This document shows positions 7,365-30,855 of a stretch of 64,000 nt of DNA, in pieces. The DNA comes from a virus: positions 1-64,000 of the IMG/VR virus record IMGVR_UViG_3300047563_000187. The stretch is one strand, 5' to 3'. Positions within the stretch are counted from its first letter, which is position 1; each line of letters opens with the position of its first letter. A program made the translations under genes and the position numbers. The notes beneath the pieces were generated by a model. It ran no database searches. It was not told where the DNA came from and saw only the letters and a list, made by a program, of their open reading frames with translations.

Positions 7365-7516
7365 ATTTCTATGCTCCATCAAGGTTTGCTTTGCAGGGAA
7401 GGATCCCTTCGAAGCGATATGGGTACGGTAGTGAGCTTGTTCGAACATCTCGAGTAAGTAGTGCTAGCGAGGTACCGAGACTGCGGGTTCGATTCCTGTG
7501 TGGGGCGGTTCAATTT
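7365..7516 (+). other. Inter-tRNA spacer with unresolved tRNA-like 3' half
   Basis: A T-arm-like segment (GCGGG, TTCGATT loop, CCTGT; about 7486-7502) is followed by GTGGGGC and G but no CCA. No convincing 5' half could be folded with it. It may be a degenerate tRNA or a structured spacer. Confidence 0.3.
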
Positions 7517-9151: not shown

Positions 9152-9247
9152 GGAAGAGTCATCCGAAATTGGTATCGGTCCAGTCTTGAAAACTGGTCAT
9201 CGGGCTAGTACCCCGTTGTGTGAGTTCGAGTCTCACGTCTTCCGCCA
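9152..9247 (+). tRNA. tRNA-Ser (TGA)
   Basis: Acceptor GGAAGAG/GTCTTCC (last pair G-G mismatch), G73, CCA; stem CCAGT/ACTGG closes CTTGAAA; long variable arm. Confidence 0.88.
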
Positions 9248-24405: not shown

Positions 24406-25728
24406 ATGAACATTAATCTCAAGAAACTGCTCGGTATTGGTGCAGCTGGTCTGCTCGGTGCTGTCATCCTCGTCTACGGTCTGTTCGGCTGGATCTACGT
24501 AGCTGGCGGTGAGTATGCCCGAATTCAGAAGCCTGATGGCTCCTATGAATGGCACGTCACCAACGGCTTCAAGGTGAAGACTCCGTTCCTGGATCGCTAC
24601 GAGATCTTCAACCAGTACAACACCATCGACATGACCGATGGCGAGAACCCTACTGCAACGATCGATCTGCCGTTGCACAAGGTTAACTTCAACGATACCT
24701 ACACCATGGATATCGGCGTAACTGCCCGCTACTCCTTGATGCCGGATCCGGAGAAGCTGGAAATCATGTACCAGGCGAACAAGACCAACAAGGCCTTGGT
24801 TGCCAGCACCATGGTGCCGAACCTGCGTAACCTGTTGAGCCAGACTGCCAACCAGTTCCGCGGTGAGGACTACCTCCAGGGTGGTCAGAACGAGTTCCAA
24901 GCTCGTCTTTACTTCCAAGCTGAGAATGGCCTGTACGTTACCGAGCGTGTTAAGCGTGAAGTGGACGTTGAATCTGGCTACTCTGCCGACGTGAACGCTT
25001 CTGCTAACGCCGAAGGTACCAAGCAGACCAAGGCTATGGCCTGGGTTGTGGACATCGTTCGCGATGATCAAGGTAAGCCGATCACTCAAGAGAGCCAGCT
25101 GGCCAAGTTCGGCGTCATGCTGGATCTGATTGAGATCAACAAGTTCATTCCGGATCCCGATCTGGAAGCCTTCATGACTCAAAAGCGTGCCAAGATCCGT
25201 GAACGTGCCGGTATCGTTGAAGACCAGCGTAACGCTCGTGAAGCTCAAGTAACTGCCCGCCTGATGGGTGAGAAAGAGCGTATCGAAGAGCGTAACAAGG
25301 CTCTGAAAGCTAAAGACCGTGCCGTTATTACCGAATCCCAGCAGGTAGCAGTTGAACAAGAACGTGCCAAGCTGGAAATCGTTAAGAAGGACAAGGAACT
25401 GAAGATCGCTCAGGCGAACGAAGGTATCCAAAAGGCCAACTACGAGGCTGCCAAGTATGAAGCTCTGGCTATCAAAGAGACCGGCTTGGCCGAAGCTCAG
25501 GTAGAAGACGCCAAGTATAAGGCTAAAGATCGTCAGCTCTACATGAAAGAGCTGGAGCTGGAAAACAACAAGCACCTGTACAATGCTCTGCCGGCCCTCA
25601 AGGTCCAGATGCCTCAGTACGTGCAGATGGGTGGCCAGAGTGGCATGAACAGCAACCTGGAAGCTATGTCCTCTCTCAAGCTGATGGAAGGCTTGGGTAT
25701 GAGTACTCCAGCGACTCCTGCCAAGTAA
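24406..25728 (+). CDS. SPFH/band-7 membrane protein
   Basis: 440 aa. N-terminal transmembrane helix (about 11-33), SPFH domain (about 34-250, beta-rich with 'YNTIDMTDGE…IGVTARYSL' like stomatin/HflK-type proteins), then a long Ala/Glu/Lys coiled coil (about 255-385) and a Gly/Met tail. Such proteins oligomerise into membrane cages or rafts; in phages a role in protecting the cell or controlling proteases (HflKC-like) is possible but unproven. AAGGAGG start; ends at a terminator. Confidence 0.85.
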   Translation: MNINLKKLLGIGAAGLLGAVILVYGLFGWIYVAGGEYARIQKPDGSYEWHVTNGFKVKTPFLDRYEIFNQYNTIDMTDGENPTATIDLPLHKVNFNDTYTMDIGVTARYSLMPDPEKLEIMYQANKTNKALVASTMVPNLRNLLSQTANQFRGEDYLQGGQNEFQARLYFQAENGLYVTERVKREVDVESGYSADVNASANAEGTKQTKAMAWVVDIVRDDQGKPITQESQLAKFGVMLDLIEINKFIPDPDLEAFMTQKRAKIRERAGIVEDQRNAREAQVTARLMGEKERIEERNKALKAKDRAVITESQQVAVEQERAKLEIVKKDKELKIAQANEGIQKANYEAAKYEALAIKETGLAEAQVEDAKYKAKDRQLYMKELELENNKHLYNALPALKVQMPQYVQMGGQSGMNSNLEAMSSLKLMEGLGMSTPATPAK

Positions 25729-25967: not shown

Positions 25968-25968
25968 C

Positions 25969-25978
25969 GGTATAAGTA
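25969..25978 (+). promoter_or_regulatory. GGTATAAGTA promoter-like element
   Basis: Exact motif; downstream lies only a short spacer and a T-rich segment (26058-26065), so it may make a short noncoding RNA. Confidence 0.5.
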
Positions 25979-26083
25979 AGTTAGAGATGTGATAGCTGTA
26001 GATCCTGTACGACAGATTTGGGCCACTTGGCCGCCCGGCTTACGCAAATTCCCCGGGTTTTTTTACTATCGCTGAGCGATTCG

Positions 26084-26093
26084 GGTATAAGTA
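26084..26093 (+). promoter_or_regulatory. GGTATAAGTA promoter-like element
   Basis: Exact motif followed by CTATGTG. It precedes a structured leader with an 11-bp inverted repeat. Confidence 0.6.
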
Positions 26094-26125
26094 CTATGTG
26101 CCAGAGGAAGCGTATAACTCTGACA

Positions 26126-26210
26126 CTCTCGACCGCAAGAATCAGACTCCGTCTACTCTGCAGATGCCCGCCAAGCGTCAATGCAGAATCCCATCGCTAG
26201 CGGTCGAGAG
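26126..26210 (+). promoter_or_regulatory. Structured leader with perfect inverted repeat
   Basis: CTCTCGACCGC (26126-26136) is exactly complementary to GCGGTCGAGAG (26200-26210). An inner pair TCTGCA…TGCAGA is nested. The RNA from the promoter at 26084 would fold into a long-range stem just upstream of the translation starts at 26222 and 26262. Confidence 0.55.
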
Positions 26211-26221
26211 TTTCAAAAGGA

Positions 26222-26296
26222 ATGAAAAACGTGAAGAACTCGCAAATAAGGAGTCGGAATCGTGCAGGTCGCAAATCTAGGAACTATCACCGGTGA
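26222..26296 (+). CDS. Possible basic leader peptide
   Basis: 24 aa, about 40% Arg/Lys plus Asn/Ser. AAAAGGA precedes the ATG. It overlaps the first 35 nt of the next gene in another frame. Could be a leader peptide or spurious. Confidence 0.3.
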   Translation: MKNVKNSQIRSRNRAGRKSRNYHR

Positions 26297-26657
26297 AACT
26301 GCAGTATTAACCGGGTGTCTGAACCTAGAAGGCGACTTCGCCATACAGGCTGAGGATGGTGCATTCCTCAACTTCTTTCCAGTGCACTACCCGGACGGGT
26401 ATGTACGTAAGAACTGGTCCGTAGAATTTCGCACCGACGGCTGGTATTTACATACATCATGTTCGGTTTTGAATGGCAAGGTTGAGTGTCCATTTAAAGC
26501 ACAGCTCTGTATGGAGTTGGTTCGAGGCTCATTGGAATGGACAAAGGGTCTAAGGTTAATCTCAAGGATTTGCCGAGGGGATATCAGTAAGATCACAACT
26601 ACTATGAGGATGCTTCAAAATGCAGGCTTAATCACGGGTACTAATCGGGAAGAATAA
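26262..26657 (+). CDS. Hypothetical protein with C-terminal helix-turn-helix-like segment
   Basis: 131 aa from a GTG start with AAGGAG 8 nt upstream. The C-terminal 'ICRGDISKITTTMRMLQNAGLI' looks like the recognition part of a winged helix, as in small phage regulators. The N-terminal part is beta-rich. Preceded by a structured leader, so its expression may be controlled post-transcriptionally. Confidence 0.5.
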   Translation: MQVANLGTITGETAVLTGCLNLEGDFAIQAEDGAFLNFFPVHYPDGYVRKNWSVEFRTDGWYLHTSCSVLNGKVECPFKAQLCMELVRGSLEWTKGLRLISRICRGDISKITTTMRMLQNAGLITGTNREE

Positions 26658-26712
26658 CAACACCACTCATGGGGGCTCGCACAGGCCCCCATATCAATCC
26701 AAAGGAGACAGT

Positions 26713-27327
26713 ATGTCTAAAGCACTAGACCCGATTTCTTTAGCTATCGCGAAAGCCTCGTGGTGGCATGGCGAACAGAAACGCAAGTACACCAACGATG
26801 ACTACATCGTTCACCCTATTGAAGTCATGAACTTCCTAGCCTTGTTTACTCAGGACGAGGCAGTCATGGTGGCAGCCATCCTGCACGACGTAGTAGAAGA
26901 TACCCCCGCCACCGTTCAGGAAGTCGAAGCTATCTTCGGTGAGGACGTAGCCAAACTGGTATTCGGCATGTCGGAACCTGAAGTACCGGCAGGTACCAAC
27001 CGCGGGGAGCGGAAGGAAATCTACCGCCTACATCTGGAGAAGCAATGCTGGCGGACCAAGATGATCAAGTTTGGGGATATCTACTCGAACACCAAAGATA
27101 TCGCTATGCACGATCCTGACTTTGCTGTAGTCTACTTGGCCGAAATCCAGCGTACTATCAACTCGATCGATGATAACCGTATCCCGCTCCTGCTCCGCCA
27201 AATGGTCAAAGAGCAGGTCAAGCTGGCTAAGCTGTACGTTGATCAGTTCCAGGCCAACAAGAAGTTGGTCAAGAAGCTGAGCAATATCAGAACTATTACC
27301 GAAACCATCAAAGGAGAACTGCTATGA
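26713..27327 (+). CDS. HD hydrolase, SpoT/MESH1-like (candidate (p)ppGpp hydrolase)
   Basis: 204 aa. 'YIVHPIEVMNFLALF' (H at about 36), 'AAILHDVVEDT' (HD at about 58-59) and 'IFGEDVAKLVFGMSE' follow the RelA/SpoT hydrolase arrangement (HPxxVA…HDxxEDT…FG..vA.LV.G), with a later 'MIKFGDIYSNTKDI' in place of 'KLADRLHN'. Stand-alone enzymes of this size (MESH1) hydrolyse the 3'-pyrophosphate of (p)ppGpp. Substrate is inferred. ATGA overlap with the Ro gene. Confidence 0.75.
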   Translation: MSKALDPISLAIAKASWWHGEQKRKYTNDDYIVHPIEVMNFLALFTQDEAVMVAAILHDVVEDTPATVQEVEAIFGEDVAKLVFGMSEPEVPAGTNRGERKEIYRLHLEKQCWRTKMIKFGDIYSNTKDIAMHDPDFAVVYLAEIQRTINSIDDNRIPLLLRQMVKEQVKLAKLYVDQFQANKKLVKKLSNIRTITETIKGELL

Positions 27328-28913
27328 AGAACTATCTGAACAACGCTCTTGGTCGTGCCCACCTGGCTAACGTAGAAGGCGTGGACGTCAAACTTCCCGG
27401 CCAAGTACGTACTCACGGCGGTGGTTTCGCCTTCGAGATCACTCCTGAAGTGCTGCTCGAACGCTTCCTGATCCTGGGTACCACTACCTCTCAGTACGTC
27501 GGTCCAGACAAGCTGGCAGTAGACGCTCTCGGCCGTCTGATGCCGCACATCGCTCTGAACCCGGTGACCGTGGCTCGTACCGCGGTAGAAGCCGTGGAGC
27601 AGAACCGTGTGCTGTCAAAGGTACCTGCTCTTTTCGTTTACGCTACAGCTCACACTGTGGCCACCTCTGGTGAACACCGTCGTGCCATCGCTCTGATGCT
27701 GCCTCGTATCGTCAACACCTTCTCCGACCTTCAGACCCTACTGGGTTTCGTAGCGAACACTCATAACAAGGGTATCGCTACCAGCTTGGTCAAGGCATGC
27801 CGTCGCTACCTGTACAACATGCCGATCGACAAGATGATCAACCAGGCTCTGAAGTACCGTAAGCGTGCCGGCTGGGCAGTTCTGGACATGCTGCGTGTCA
27901 TCCACCCTGTGCCGAAGGATAACGACCAGAACTTCCTGTACGGTTACATCGTGGAGAACGATGAAGCCCGTGCAGAAGCTTGCCGTCGCTTCCCGATGGT
28001 AGCAGCCTTCGAAGCTGCCAAGGTGCTGGATGATCACAACCTGATCGTCAAGCTGATCAAGGACAACGGTCTGACTTGGGAGCACGTACCTACCGAGCAC
28101 CTGAACAACAAGTGGGTTTGGAAGGCTCTGCTGCCCAACCTGCCGATGACCGCTCTGATCCGTAACCTGCCGAAGATCTCTTCTGTAGGTGCGATCGATG
28201 ACACCTTGTCTCTGGACATCGTGCTGGACAAGCTGAAGCCGGAGATCGTGGCAAAGGCTAAGGTTCACCCCTTCCGTCTTTACCTGGCATGGTACGGCTA
28301 TGGCCAAGGCGGCAACCGCAACATGTCCTGGACTCCTAATCAGCGTATCCTCGCTGCTCTGGAGACCTGCCTGTATGCGGCATTCGCCAACGTAGAGGTG
28401 AAGGGTAAGGTGTGCATCGGCTCTGACATCTCAGGCTCTATGTGGTGGGATGACTCTCGCATCAACCGTACTGGTCCGTATGCAGGCGATGCAGCCGGCA
28501 TGCTGGCAGCCACCTTCAAGGCAGCTAATCCGGAAACTGACGTGTTCTACTTCTCCGGCCAGCTGGTCAAGGCGGCGTTCGACCCGATGTCTTTGAAGTC
28601 GGTCAACATCGACATGCACAAGCATCACATGGGTAGCACCAACCCAGGTTTGCTGATCTCCAAGGCCATCAAGGATAAGGTCAGATACGATGCCTTCATC
28701 GTCCTGACTGATAATGACGTGAACAGTGGTCGTCACTCCCAGCAACTGCTGGAGACCTACCGTGCCACCGTCAATCCGAAGGCCAAGCTGATCGTCGTCG
28801 GTATGACTGCGAACAACTTCTCCATCTCCAGCCCGGATGACGTCCTGTCTATGGACATCGCCGGTATGGACGCAGGGATCATGACTGCGATCGAGAAGTT
28901 CATCGCAATGTAA
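27324..28913 (+). CDS. Ro60/TROVE-domain RNA-binding protein
   Basis: 529 aa. N-terminal TROVE domain of helical repeats (about 20-350) and C-terminal von Willebrand A domain with MIDAS motif 'GSDISGSMWW' (DxSxS, about 368-377) and 'VLTDNDVN'. Ro proteins form a ring that holds ends of misfolded noncoding RNAs and Y RNAs, and in bacteria work with exoribonucleases such as PNPase. Length is typical for bacterial Rsr. A 510-nt structured noncoding transcript follows immediately, as Y RNAs follow rsr genes in bacteria. Confidence 0.9.
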   Translation: MKNYLNNALGRAHLANVEGVDVKLPGQVRTHGGGFAFEITPEVLLERFLILGTTTSQYVGPDKLAVDALGRLMPHIALNPVTVARTAVEAVEQNRVLSKVPALFVYATAHTVATSGEHRRAIALMLPRIVNTFSDLQTLLGFVANTHNKGIATSLVKACRRYLYNMPIDKMINQALKYRKRAGWAVLDMLRVIHPVPKDNDQNFLYGYIVENDEARAEACRRFPMVAAFEAAKVLDDHNLIVKLIKDNGLTWEHVPTEHLNNKWVWKALLPNLPMTALIRNLPKISSVGAIDDTLSLDIVLDKLKPEIVAKAKVHPFRLYLAWYGYGQGGNRNMSWTPNQRILAALETCLYAAFANVEVKGKVCIGSDISGSMWWDDSRINRTGPYAGDAAGMLAATFKAANPETDVFYFSGQLVKAAFDPMSLKSVNIDMHKHHMGSTNPGLLISKAIKDKVRYDAFIVLTDNDVNSGRHSQQLLETYRATVNPKAKLIVVGMTANNFSISSPDDVLSMDIAGMDAGIMTAIEKFIAM

Positions 28914-28934
28914 TTCAACATTTGGGGTATTACG

Positions 28935-28944
28935 GGTATAAATA
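28935..28944 (+). promoter_or_regulatory. GGTATAAATA promoter-like element
   Basis: Variant motif. TTCAACATTT upstream has the same spacing (11 nt to GG) as in the element at 62715. No ORF follows, so it appears to drive the noncoding RNA. Confidence 0.65.
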
Positions 28945-28949
28945 TTATG

Positions 28950-29463
28950 TGGTGAGGTATCTTACTCTTAAGTAGAGAGGAGGTAACCTCCTCACTCCGT
29001 AGTACCCCTCCGGGGCGGATCCTGGCGGATCCAACTCGGCGTTATGCTCACCAAGCGACGTACAGTATGTTCGACAAGTGTTGAACTGCAAGAGGTAACC
29101 TCTTGACTCGTTCTTCCAGGCGCCGCTCCGGGCTTCGCCCTACGCTCTGCCTGGAGTATCTATAGATTGGATCTAGCATCCGCGAGTGTACGTTAGTACC
29201 AACCACCAGAGGTAACTTTGGGAATACCAAGCGAGGAGGCTACCTCCTCATTCTGTTAAACCCGCAGTCGGCGTACAGTCCCAATCACTGTACCGCCTTC
29301 GCATGCTCTGGTTGATGCTGTGGCATCACGAGTAGTCTGTAGTATATGGACTTAGTTCCGTGGGGAGGTAACCTCCCTACTCCATTACTTCGCGTATTTG
29401 CACAGAAGTGCAAAGTACGCATGTACAGACCATAACCAAAAGAGAGTCCAACTCTCTTTTTTA
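28950..29463 (+). ncRNA. Large structured noncoding RNA downstream of the Ro gene (Y RNA-like candidate)
   Basis: No plausible ORF on the + strand between 28914 and 29477, but many strong hairpins. A repeated module GAGG-TAA-CCTC appears at 28977-28993, 29089-29105, 29206-29221 (imperfect), 29233-29249 and 29363-29377, four of them followed within a few nt by A(C/T)TC. Other stems: CCAGGC/GCCTGG (29116-29154), GTACAGT/ACTGTAC (29273-29293), TGATGC/GCATCA (29313-29328) and a 12-bp stem GCGTA-TTTGCAC/GTGCAAA-TACGC (29392-29420). It begins at a promoter-like element and ends at a terminator. Position next to the Ro gene suggests a Y RNA-like partner; the boundaries and role are inferred. Confidence 0.65.
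29438..29463 (+). terminator. Rho-independent terminator
   Basis: AAAAGAGAGT-CCA-ACTCTCTTTTTT hairpin; ends the noncoding RNA. Confidence 0.9.
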
Positions 29464-29477
29464 CTTGGAGATTAGCC

Positions 29478-30029
29478 ATGGACCTATTCCTCGGGGTTGA
29501 CCCGGGTTGGAAGAACCTCGGATGGTGCGTCTCGACAATCGATGGGGAACCTCAATTGTTCGGGACAATGAACCCTTCCGAGTATGAGTTGGGCACGGTG
29601 CCTAAGCTCATCTTAGATAGTCTCGGCAGCAAGGCGAAAAACCTGAAAGGTATTGCCATGGAGCGGTACGTCTTTTATGATGGCCGCTACAACGCTGACA
29701 GTGAGCACATCCTCATGGTTACGGGACAGTTCCAGTACATGGCTGCCTCGTTGGGGATGGAGATCAAGATGTTCCGAGCTATTGACTGGAAGACTACGCT
29801 AGCCAAGGTCTTGTTCAAGTCCAATGGCTGGCAGAATCCTTCTGATTCGTTCGACAAAGTGTTCTCAATTGCAGCTGCTAAAGAGGCAACTGGAATGGAA
29901 TTCAAAGTCGACCACGTGGCGGACGCAGGGTGCCTCGCATACCTCGCAGGACGCTACCAGAAGGCGTTGACGGCTGCTGCCCTAGGCAGTGGTCTAGGTA
30001 AGACTAAATGCTCTCAGAAACGCTCCTAG
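29478..30029 (+). CDS. RuvC-like Holliday junction resolvase
   Basis: 183 aa. 'LGVDPGWKNLGW' (D at about residue 8) is the first catalytic RNase H-fold motif of RuvC; 'GIAMERYVFYD' carries the second acid (E at about 62) and 'KVDHVADAGCLAYL' (about 145-158) the last acidic pair. RuvC-type enzymes cut branched DNA during recombination or before packaging. Length is normal for RuvC. Confidence 0.82.
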   Translation: MDLFLGVDPGWKNLGWCVSTIDGEPQLFGTMNPSEYELGTVPKLILDSLGSKAKNLKGIAMERYVFYDGRYNADSEHILMVTGQFQYMAASLGMEIKMFRAIDWKTTLAKVLFKSNGWQNPSDSFDKVFSIAAAKEATGMEFKVDHVADAGCLAYLAGRYQKALTAAALGSGLGKTKCSQKRS

Positions 30030-30485: not shown

Positions 30486-30760
30486 CGACACATTTCGGCC
30501 CCATGTGTCTGGTCATTTTGAGTCCAATCGACACATAAAATGACGATTTCATGGGGTTTTTAGCGTGTATGTGTCGGTTGTGTCGCCTGTTCCACCCCAA
30601 AATACATACCTACTTCTACGAAAAGGCACCAATGTGTCTTATCCTATATATCTCTCTATCTCTCGTAAGGAAAATATAAATAAATAAATAGAGAGGGGTG
30701 GTTGGGATATTTCAGATATGGGATGTTTTTAGAGGGTGGAACACCGACACATCGCACACA
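30486..30760. other. Noncoding iteron-like region with AT-rich centre (candidate origin or control region)
   Basis: At least seven copies of GACACA/TGTGTC in both orientations (30487, 30504, 30530, 30570, 30579, 30633, 30746). CGACACATA (30529-30537) and TATGTGTCG (30568-30576) form a perfect 9-bp inverted repeat. TGTTCCACCC (30588) is inverted at GGGTGGAACA (30734). Between these arms lies a sharply AT-rich stretch (30671-30690). No ORF is convincing here. This architecture fits a replication origin, but an operator array is possible. Confidence 0.5.
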
Positions 30761-30855
30761 TGAATCTGAAGACTGCTTTGCTTACGAGGATGTTCCAGGC
30801 ACACCATGTGCACACAGACTCATACTTGACCGCCACATGCCCAAGGAGGCATTCA

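Follow-up and report, generated by a model that had tools for sequence, protein, structure and literature searches.

What is encoded in the 564 nt without a plausible gene that follow the Ro60/Rsr (Ro) gene of a phage in the IMG/VR collection? The gap occupies positions 28914-29477, between the Ro stop codon (28913) and the next start (29478), of a 64,000-nt window, which is the whole stretch of DNA analyzed here and the first part of the 175,261-base virus record IMGVR_UViG_3300047563_000187. The best explanation, held with moderate confidence, is that the gap holds the gene of a new family of phage RNA with its own promoter and terminator and four domains, most likely a partner of Ro in RNA quality control or repair. 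Comparisons of sequence and predicted structure identify a new Ro-associated phage RNA family that, by the features tested, is not a Y RNA. From phages to humans, Ro is a conserved RNA-caretaker protein; among its RNA partners, Y RNAs are the best established. If the proposed partnership is real, Ro would be able to use a quite different, polyvalent RNA, and the locus would offer a compact system for testing why phages carry Ro, a long-open question. The protein gene and the proposed transcription unit comprise the following features:

27324-28913, + strand: gene for a Ro60/Rsr protein with TROVE and vWA domains, 529 amino acids, full length, residues of the metal ion-dependent adhesion site (MIDAS) kept, with Pfam and PDB matches.
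28934-28951, + strand: candidate phage promoter GGGTATAAATATTATGTG, T4-late-like, identified by motif enrichment, with a predicted transcription start near 28950.
28950-29460, + strand: predicted structured non-coding RNA, about 510 nt long, with four tandem domains and a terminator, supported by the fold (z-score -7.7), a domain descriptor and covariation.
29438-29460, + strand: predicted intrinsic terminator AAAAGAGAGU-CCA-ACUCUCUUUUUU, a 10-bp stem, A/U-flanked, ending in a U-run (z-score -4.7).

A preliminary description of this locus had reported a full-length Ro homologue followed by about 560 nt without genes but with a promoter-like element and a terminator, all of which are borne out. 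The Ro open reading frame (ORF) matches PF25045 vWA_Ro60 (E 4.5e-31) and PF05731 TROVE (E 2.6e-22), both passing the Pfam cut-offs, and is matched by the solved RO60/Rsr structures in the PDB at E-values of 1e-43 to 3e-48 by sequence. In an alignment of 10 phage Ro proteins, this one and nine others, the MIDAS motif DxSxS...T...D is invariant (D368, S370, S372, T439 and D463). Within 28950-29463, the longest stop-to-stop frame spans 63 codons, and when the RNA of this interval (514 nt) is folded none of 100 dinucleotide shuffles is as stable.

The RNA would start 36 nt past the Ro stop codon. The promoter motif of GGGTATAAATATTATGTG is present in eight copies in the window, compared with 0.22 expected, and the copy at 28934-28951 is one of two perfect ones. 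About 30 copies are spread across the 175-kb phage, nearly all on the + strand, and one of them (168045) abuts a tRNA gene. The motif is not of the sigma-70 type; it resembles the T4 late promoter TATAAATA, and the T4-late spacing rule would place the start at 28950. With this motif at one end and the terminator at the other, the most likely transcription unit spans about 28950 to 29460 and is bounded by a phage promoter and a terminator of its own.

Some further observations concern the same motif. T4-late-like copies of the form GGTATAAGTACTATGTA/G lie in the window at positions including 6125, 7818, 22379, 26083, 34466 and 51341 (the last on the - strand), and the core GGTATAAVTA is present too in Arash-like and Vibrio relatives. 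The perfect copy at 26083 falls in an ORF-poor part of the window (25968-26261) that also contains a long hairpin, CTCTCGACCGC...GCGGTCGAGAG; the overall fold of that part (z-score -0.9) is no better than chance.

The predicted RNA is built from four domains of one design. Each opens with one strand of a 7-8 bp closing stem, P1, and the sequence GUAU or GUAA. Hairpins A and B come next, B with a G-UAA/CUA-C triloop, then a variable arm, a short AUG or GAG, and the closing strand P1'. The domains measure 96-138 nt and, with one linker hairpin, are arranged as follows:

28950-29053, + strand: domain 1, P1 UGGUGAG/CUCACCA, GUAU, hairpin A, hairpin B at 28977-28993, variable arm, UUAUG; the unconstrained minimum free energy (MFE) fold agrees.
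29057-29194, + strand: domain 2, P1 GACGUACA/UGUACGUU, GUAU, hairpin A GUUCGAC/GUUGAAC, hairpin B at 29089-29105, long arm, GCGAG; z-score -4.1.
29205-29312, + strand: domain 3, P1 ACCAGAG/CUCUGGU, GUAA, hairpin A, hairpin B with a CUA loop at 29233-29249, arm, GCAUG; z-score -3.9.
29313-29328, + strand: linker hairpin UGAUGC/GCAUCA between domains 3 and 4; base-pair probability 0.91.
29335-29430, + strand: domain 4, P1 GUCUGUA/UACAGAC, GUAU, hairpin A, hairpin B at 29360-29380, arm, GCAUG; z-score -6.3.

When the domains are folded singly and without constraint, P1 and the arms form as planned, except that the weak hairpin A of domain 4 is lost to a competing helix. The hairpin-B cores, GAGG(TAA/CTA)CCTC, lie at 28980, 29092, 29236 and 29365. 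Their spacings of 112, 144 and 129 nt agree with the 112-144 nt given at the outset, and in the window each of the four is followed on its 3' side by A(C/T)TC; in relatives the ACTC is not conserved. The preliminary description had counted five hairpins with a shared core. Four are real, while the fifth, at 29209, is made of the 5' P1 strand of domain 3, GUAA and hairpin A. Its picture of a repeated-hairpin RNA is similarly right about the repeats and too simple about their setting, as each hairpin is a single arm of one of the four multi-branch domains.

This layout is unlikely to have arisen by chance. The domain descriptor recovers four of four units in the window with all elements in order, and its matches tile 28950-29430. 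A shuffled 64-kb strand gives 0.017 matches with the first version of the descriptor and 0.025 with the final one. When the hairpin Bs are held fixed and the spacers shuffled, none of 4000 shuffles reaches three domains, and at comparable hairpins elsewhere the domain plan fits by chance in 2 of 184 cases. Compensatory base changes, named beforehand as a test, are present across the domains: in an alignment of 14 domains 96.4% of cells are paired, 15 of 16 pairs show changes on both sides, and the covariation score is 1.09, versus 0.26 when shuffled and at most 0.19 for slid structures. Pairing was itself used to find the stems, so part of this signal is biased. The bias is greatest for hairpin A, whose stems in alignments A6 and A7 were chosen because they pair, which biases the helix 2 counts; P1 too was placed by its complementarity. 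Cleaner evidence comes from the shuffles and from the prospective matches described below.

The same comparison bears on whether the region acts as DNA, with palindromic operator or iteron sites, or as a cis-regulatory leader of the downstream gene. The core GAGGTAACCTC is an inverted repeat in DNA, as such a function would have it, but the letters of the outer stems covary instead of being conserved, the conserved flanks are strand-specific, a terminator sits before the next gene, and a related copy in another clade lies upstream of Ro. This explanation is accordingly given very little weight.

The position beside Ro invites comparison with Y RNAs, which in bacteria and phages accompany Rsr as the YrlA type (Chen et al. 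2014). That association has been reviewed (PMC8394870), and bacterial Ro and Y RNAs are placed in the context of RNA repair and quality control (PMC7790460, PMC8394870). For comparison, phage Ro genes were gathered from GenBank phages and IMG/VR. The tRNA-like Y RNA motif GGTTAYC...GGTTCRA lies near Ro in 44 of 92 phage loci, often in tandem, and a YrlA covariance model (R1) built from 50 phage Y RNAs recovers Y RNAs in most Ro loci. With filters off, R1 has no match on the + strand of the window RNA; the GGUUAYC...GGUUCRA domain is not found in that RNA either, and no YrlA candidate is present near Ro or elsewhere in the phage, where strong R1 matches coincide with ordinary tRNAs. Searches with Rfam covariance models, including those for tRNA, tmRNA and large ornate RNAs, return nothing at the gathering score and, at E<=10, only a chance IMPDH match. 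The YrlA hypothesis was therefore rejected, given the R1 result and the missing tRNA-like domain; apart from its position adjoining Ro, nothing commends a canonical YrlA-type array, whose probability is close to negligible. The earlier proposal of a new RNA is supported by the lack of a match both in Rfam and to R1.

The resemblance to YrlA/Rsr systems lies at another level: an RNA gene next to Ro, with modules of about 100 nt that have paired ends and that often occur several in tandem at phage Ro genes. Compared with Y RNAs, which are 90-150 nt long with paired ends, single domains (96-138 nt) are of like size, while the whole unit is about 510 nt. The window RNA differs in having four domains in one transcription unit, other internal hairpins, and a GUAU/AUG loop where Y RNA has CGA/CC(A/U)U. 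Tandem arrays of two to five YrlA-type Y RNAs adjoining phage Ro genes are common in IMG/VR (for example L086, L101, L125, L118 and L068).

These likenesses leave room for a variant in which a single precursor is processed into four Y-like RNAs that each bind one Ro; it is compatible with the best explanation and regarded as possible but doubtful. Domain size and paired ends are those of bacterial Y RNAs, YrlA arrays adjoin many phage Ro genes, and in the relative G011, described below, domains occur singly and in twos. On the other hand, the linkers here are as short as 3 nt, and no internal promoter or terminator and no processing site was identified.

Evidence for an association with Ro comes from a second lineage. 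In the IMG/VR clade of L118, L122, L068, L091 and L109 (the L118 clade), repeated GAG-UAA-CUC hairpins occupy about 430 nt directly upstream of Ro, in several loci preceded by a Y RNA array. A DNA pattern taken from this RNA and searched without regard to Ro found eight contigs, all eight with Ro no more than about 300 bases downstream. Aligned, five of these RNAs fold into two tandem domains. In both, P1 and GUAU lead into hairpins A and B, the latter with a UAA/CAA triloop, and a variable region and AUG(A/U)G come before P1'. The terminase of this clade is 47-48% identical to that of the phage under study, so the two are distant members of one phage group.

Closer relatives, namely Salmonella phage Arash and the IMG/VR genomes G002, G006 and G007, have terminases 72-74% identical. 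These four and Vibrio phage D181 lack Ro, and the final descriptor detects no domain in the whole genomes of these five Ro-less relatives. Roughly 150 further Ro loci gave no match either. Both clades had been seen before the descriptor was written; later matches in G011, a genome of the L118 clade, are prospective. At the Ro locus there, one domain precedes the Y RNA array; a tandem pair of domains, starting right after the motif GGTATAAGTA, lies beside a PNKP_ligase gene:

G011, L295 4201-5625, - strand: PNKP-type RNA ligase gene, directly upstream of the two-domain copy (PF16542, E 5e-28).

No conserved ORF appeared. A direct DNA search of 50,697 phage records gave no match, Ro and RuvC-like protein scans of IMG/VR revealed no close relative, and the exact double-hairpin pattern was not found. 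For the L118-clade RNA, Rfam returned chance matches only and its DNA was not found in phage records. The pattern GTAT..GAGGTAACCTC...ACTC, with no occurrence in IMG/VR and 10 in GTDB genomes, was discarded because all 10 lack P1 and represent chance.

Two lineages carry the RNA next to Ro, after the gene in one and before it in the other, and the relatives that lack Ro lack the RNA as well, which makes a partnership with Ro the best guess. With four modules adjoining Ro in this phage, a partner with several Ro sites, one of the two possibilities raised in the preliminary description, is plausible. In the proposed mechanism, 28950-29460 would encode a non-coding RNA of a new phage family, with four multi-branch domains of one design, and this RNA would be the partner of the neighboring Ro protein. 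The site for the protein would be the P1 stem that recurs in every domain, together with its conserved GUAU/AUG internal loop; the repeats would let a single RNA carry several Ro rings, or the RNA might be cut into four. During infection the resulting ribonucleoprotein (RNP) would act in RNA repair or quality control, like Y RNA-Rsr in bacteria.

Several observations weigh against this partnership or the structure on which it builds. In 38 phage Y RNAs, the core next to the terminal stem has the form P1-CGA.../...CC(A/U)U-P1', a derived Ro-binding core that is absent from the four domains, where GUAU/GUAA and AUG/GAG occupy its place. In G011, about 46 kb separate the two-domain copy from Ro. 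The covariance model R2, built on the L118-clade 5' parts, has no match in the window, and the link between the clades is one of architecture and short motifs, short of an established sequence homology. The co-occurrence with Ro rests on two lineages only. Finally, in the whole-RNA MFE structure the hairpin Bs of domains 1 and 3 form a long-range duplex, which is preferred to folding domain 1 locally; that structure was initially taken as the model and then dropped, as the duplex departs from the comparative structure.

Some of these points would suit a structural phage RNA that is independent of Ro and merely shares an RNA-gene neighborhood with it. Phages are among the carriers of GOLLD, ROOL and OLE. 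These large, very structured RNAs form homo-oligomers (PMC12286853), and the hairpin B arms of domains 1 and 3, which are identical and able to pair in trans, might allow self-association of a similar kind. The missing Ro-binding core and the distant G011 copy beside an RNA ligase gene fit as well. The window RNA nevertheless differs from GOLLD, ROOL and OLE in its repeated-domain layout, its linkage to Ro and the lack of an Rfam match at any threshold tried. The RNA also stands beside Ro in both Ro-bearing lineages and is absent from the five relatives without it, and the pattern scan was Ro-linked in every contig. Independence from Ro is considered fairly unlikely.

As for function, the copy next to the ligase gene suggests RNA repair or quality control, by analogy with the setting of bacterial Ro and Y RNAs. 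In rsr-yrlBA-rtcBA RNA repair operons (PMC7790460), Ro, a small RNA and RNA ligase functions likewise occur together. The difference is that no RtcB or RtcA was identified here and the ligase is of another type, seen in G011 only; the PNKP-type ligase was not found in the phage under study or in six other relatives searched. A bolder formulation, offered tentatively, is a new class of modular RNA with one to four domains that would be the platform of a phage Ro RNP and of RNA repair; its P1-GUAU/AUG recognition would be unlike the Y core, and it would replace Y RNA here and serve the PNKP-type ligase in relatives.

The ligase and the domain shape could alternatively indicate a decoy or substrate mimic, in which the 7-bp stem and multi-branch junction imitate tRNA and titrate host or defense RNases. 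The closing stem of 7-8 bp, the four-helix junction and the ligase beside one copy are in keeping with this, and YrlA, itself tRNA-like, has been suggested to act as a competitive inhibitor (PMC7790460). The domains, however, contain no T-arm/T-loop or D-loop motifs and are not called as tRNA, which makes a decoy improbable. Among tRNA-like elements elsewhere in the window, T-arm-like hairpins at 7477-7514 (GCGGG-TTCGATT-CCTGT) and 9220-9236 (GTGAG-TTCGAGT-CTCAC), by tRNA genes, are not called by ARAGORN and appear to be degenerate or unusual tRNAs.

A phage precedent for an abundant RNA at such a position exists in Listeria phage CKA15, where a region of about 490 nt (26,236-26,727) with no plausible ORFs is highly transcribed in infection and lies less than 2 kb from a Ro-like gene (PMC12282133). 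Its authors only suggest Y RNAs, and the likeness to the window RNA is one of description. In the CKA15-related Listeria phage P100, a Ro profile search did not find Ro.

Two protein genes flank Ro and the RNA:

26713-27327, + strand: HD-domain phosphohydrolase, SpoT/MESH1-like (PF13328 HD_4, E 8.4e-15; PHROG 990, metal-dependent phosphohydrolase).
29478-30029, + strand: downstream gene annotated 'endonuclease' in phage Arash, with 52-54% identity in Arash and four IMG/VR relatives.

The start of Ro overlaps the end of the HD gene by 4 nt (ATGA), as the coupling noted at the outset implied. Membership of the HD gene in a Ro cassette was rejected because other Ro genes have no HD neighbor and its homologues sit in Ro-less relatives; it is probably a neighbor outside the Ro-RNA unit. 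The flank at 29478-30029 is also common to Ro-less relatives. Taken together with the hairpin results above, the preliminary description is partly confirmed in its observations and partly supported in its interpretation.

A gene for an SPFH/Band-7 protein lies near Ro in the window (24406-25728); it was not found in the Arash-like relatives, and a Band-7 gene is also found 3' of Ro in Rhodococcus phage Trina. Shortly beyond the RNA, a dispersed intergenic repeat of about 260 nt (window 30502-30762) is one of five copies in the 175-kb phage that are 79-88% identical, the others being at L005 7541-7800, L006 16026-16282 (reversed), L008 18192-18449 and L010 3455-3737. At L006 14054-15898 (G000 98054-99898), a protein matches a PHROG whose annotation is RNA polymerase beta subunit (E 8e-13), a hint that this phage may have a multi-subunit RNA polymerase of its own.

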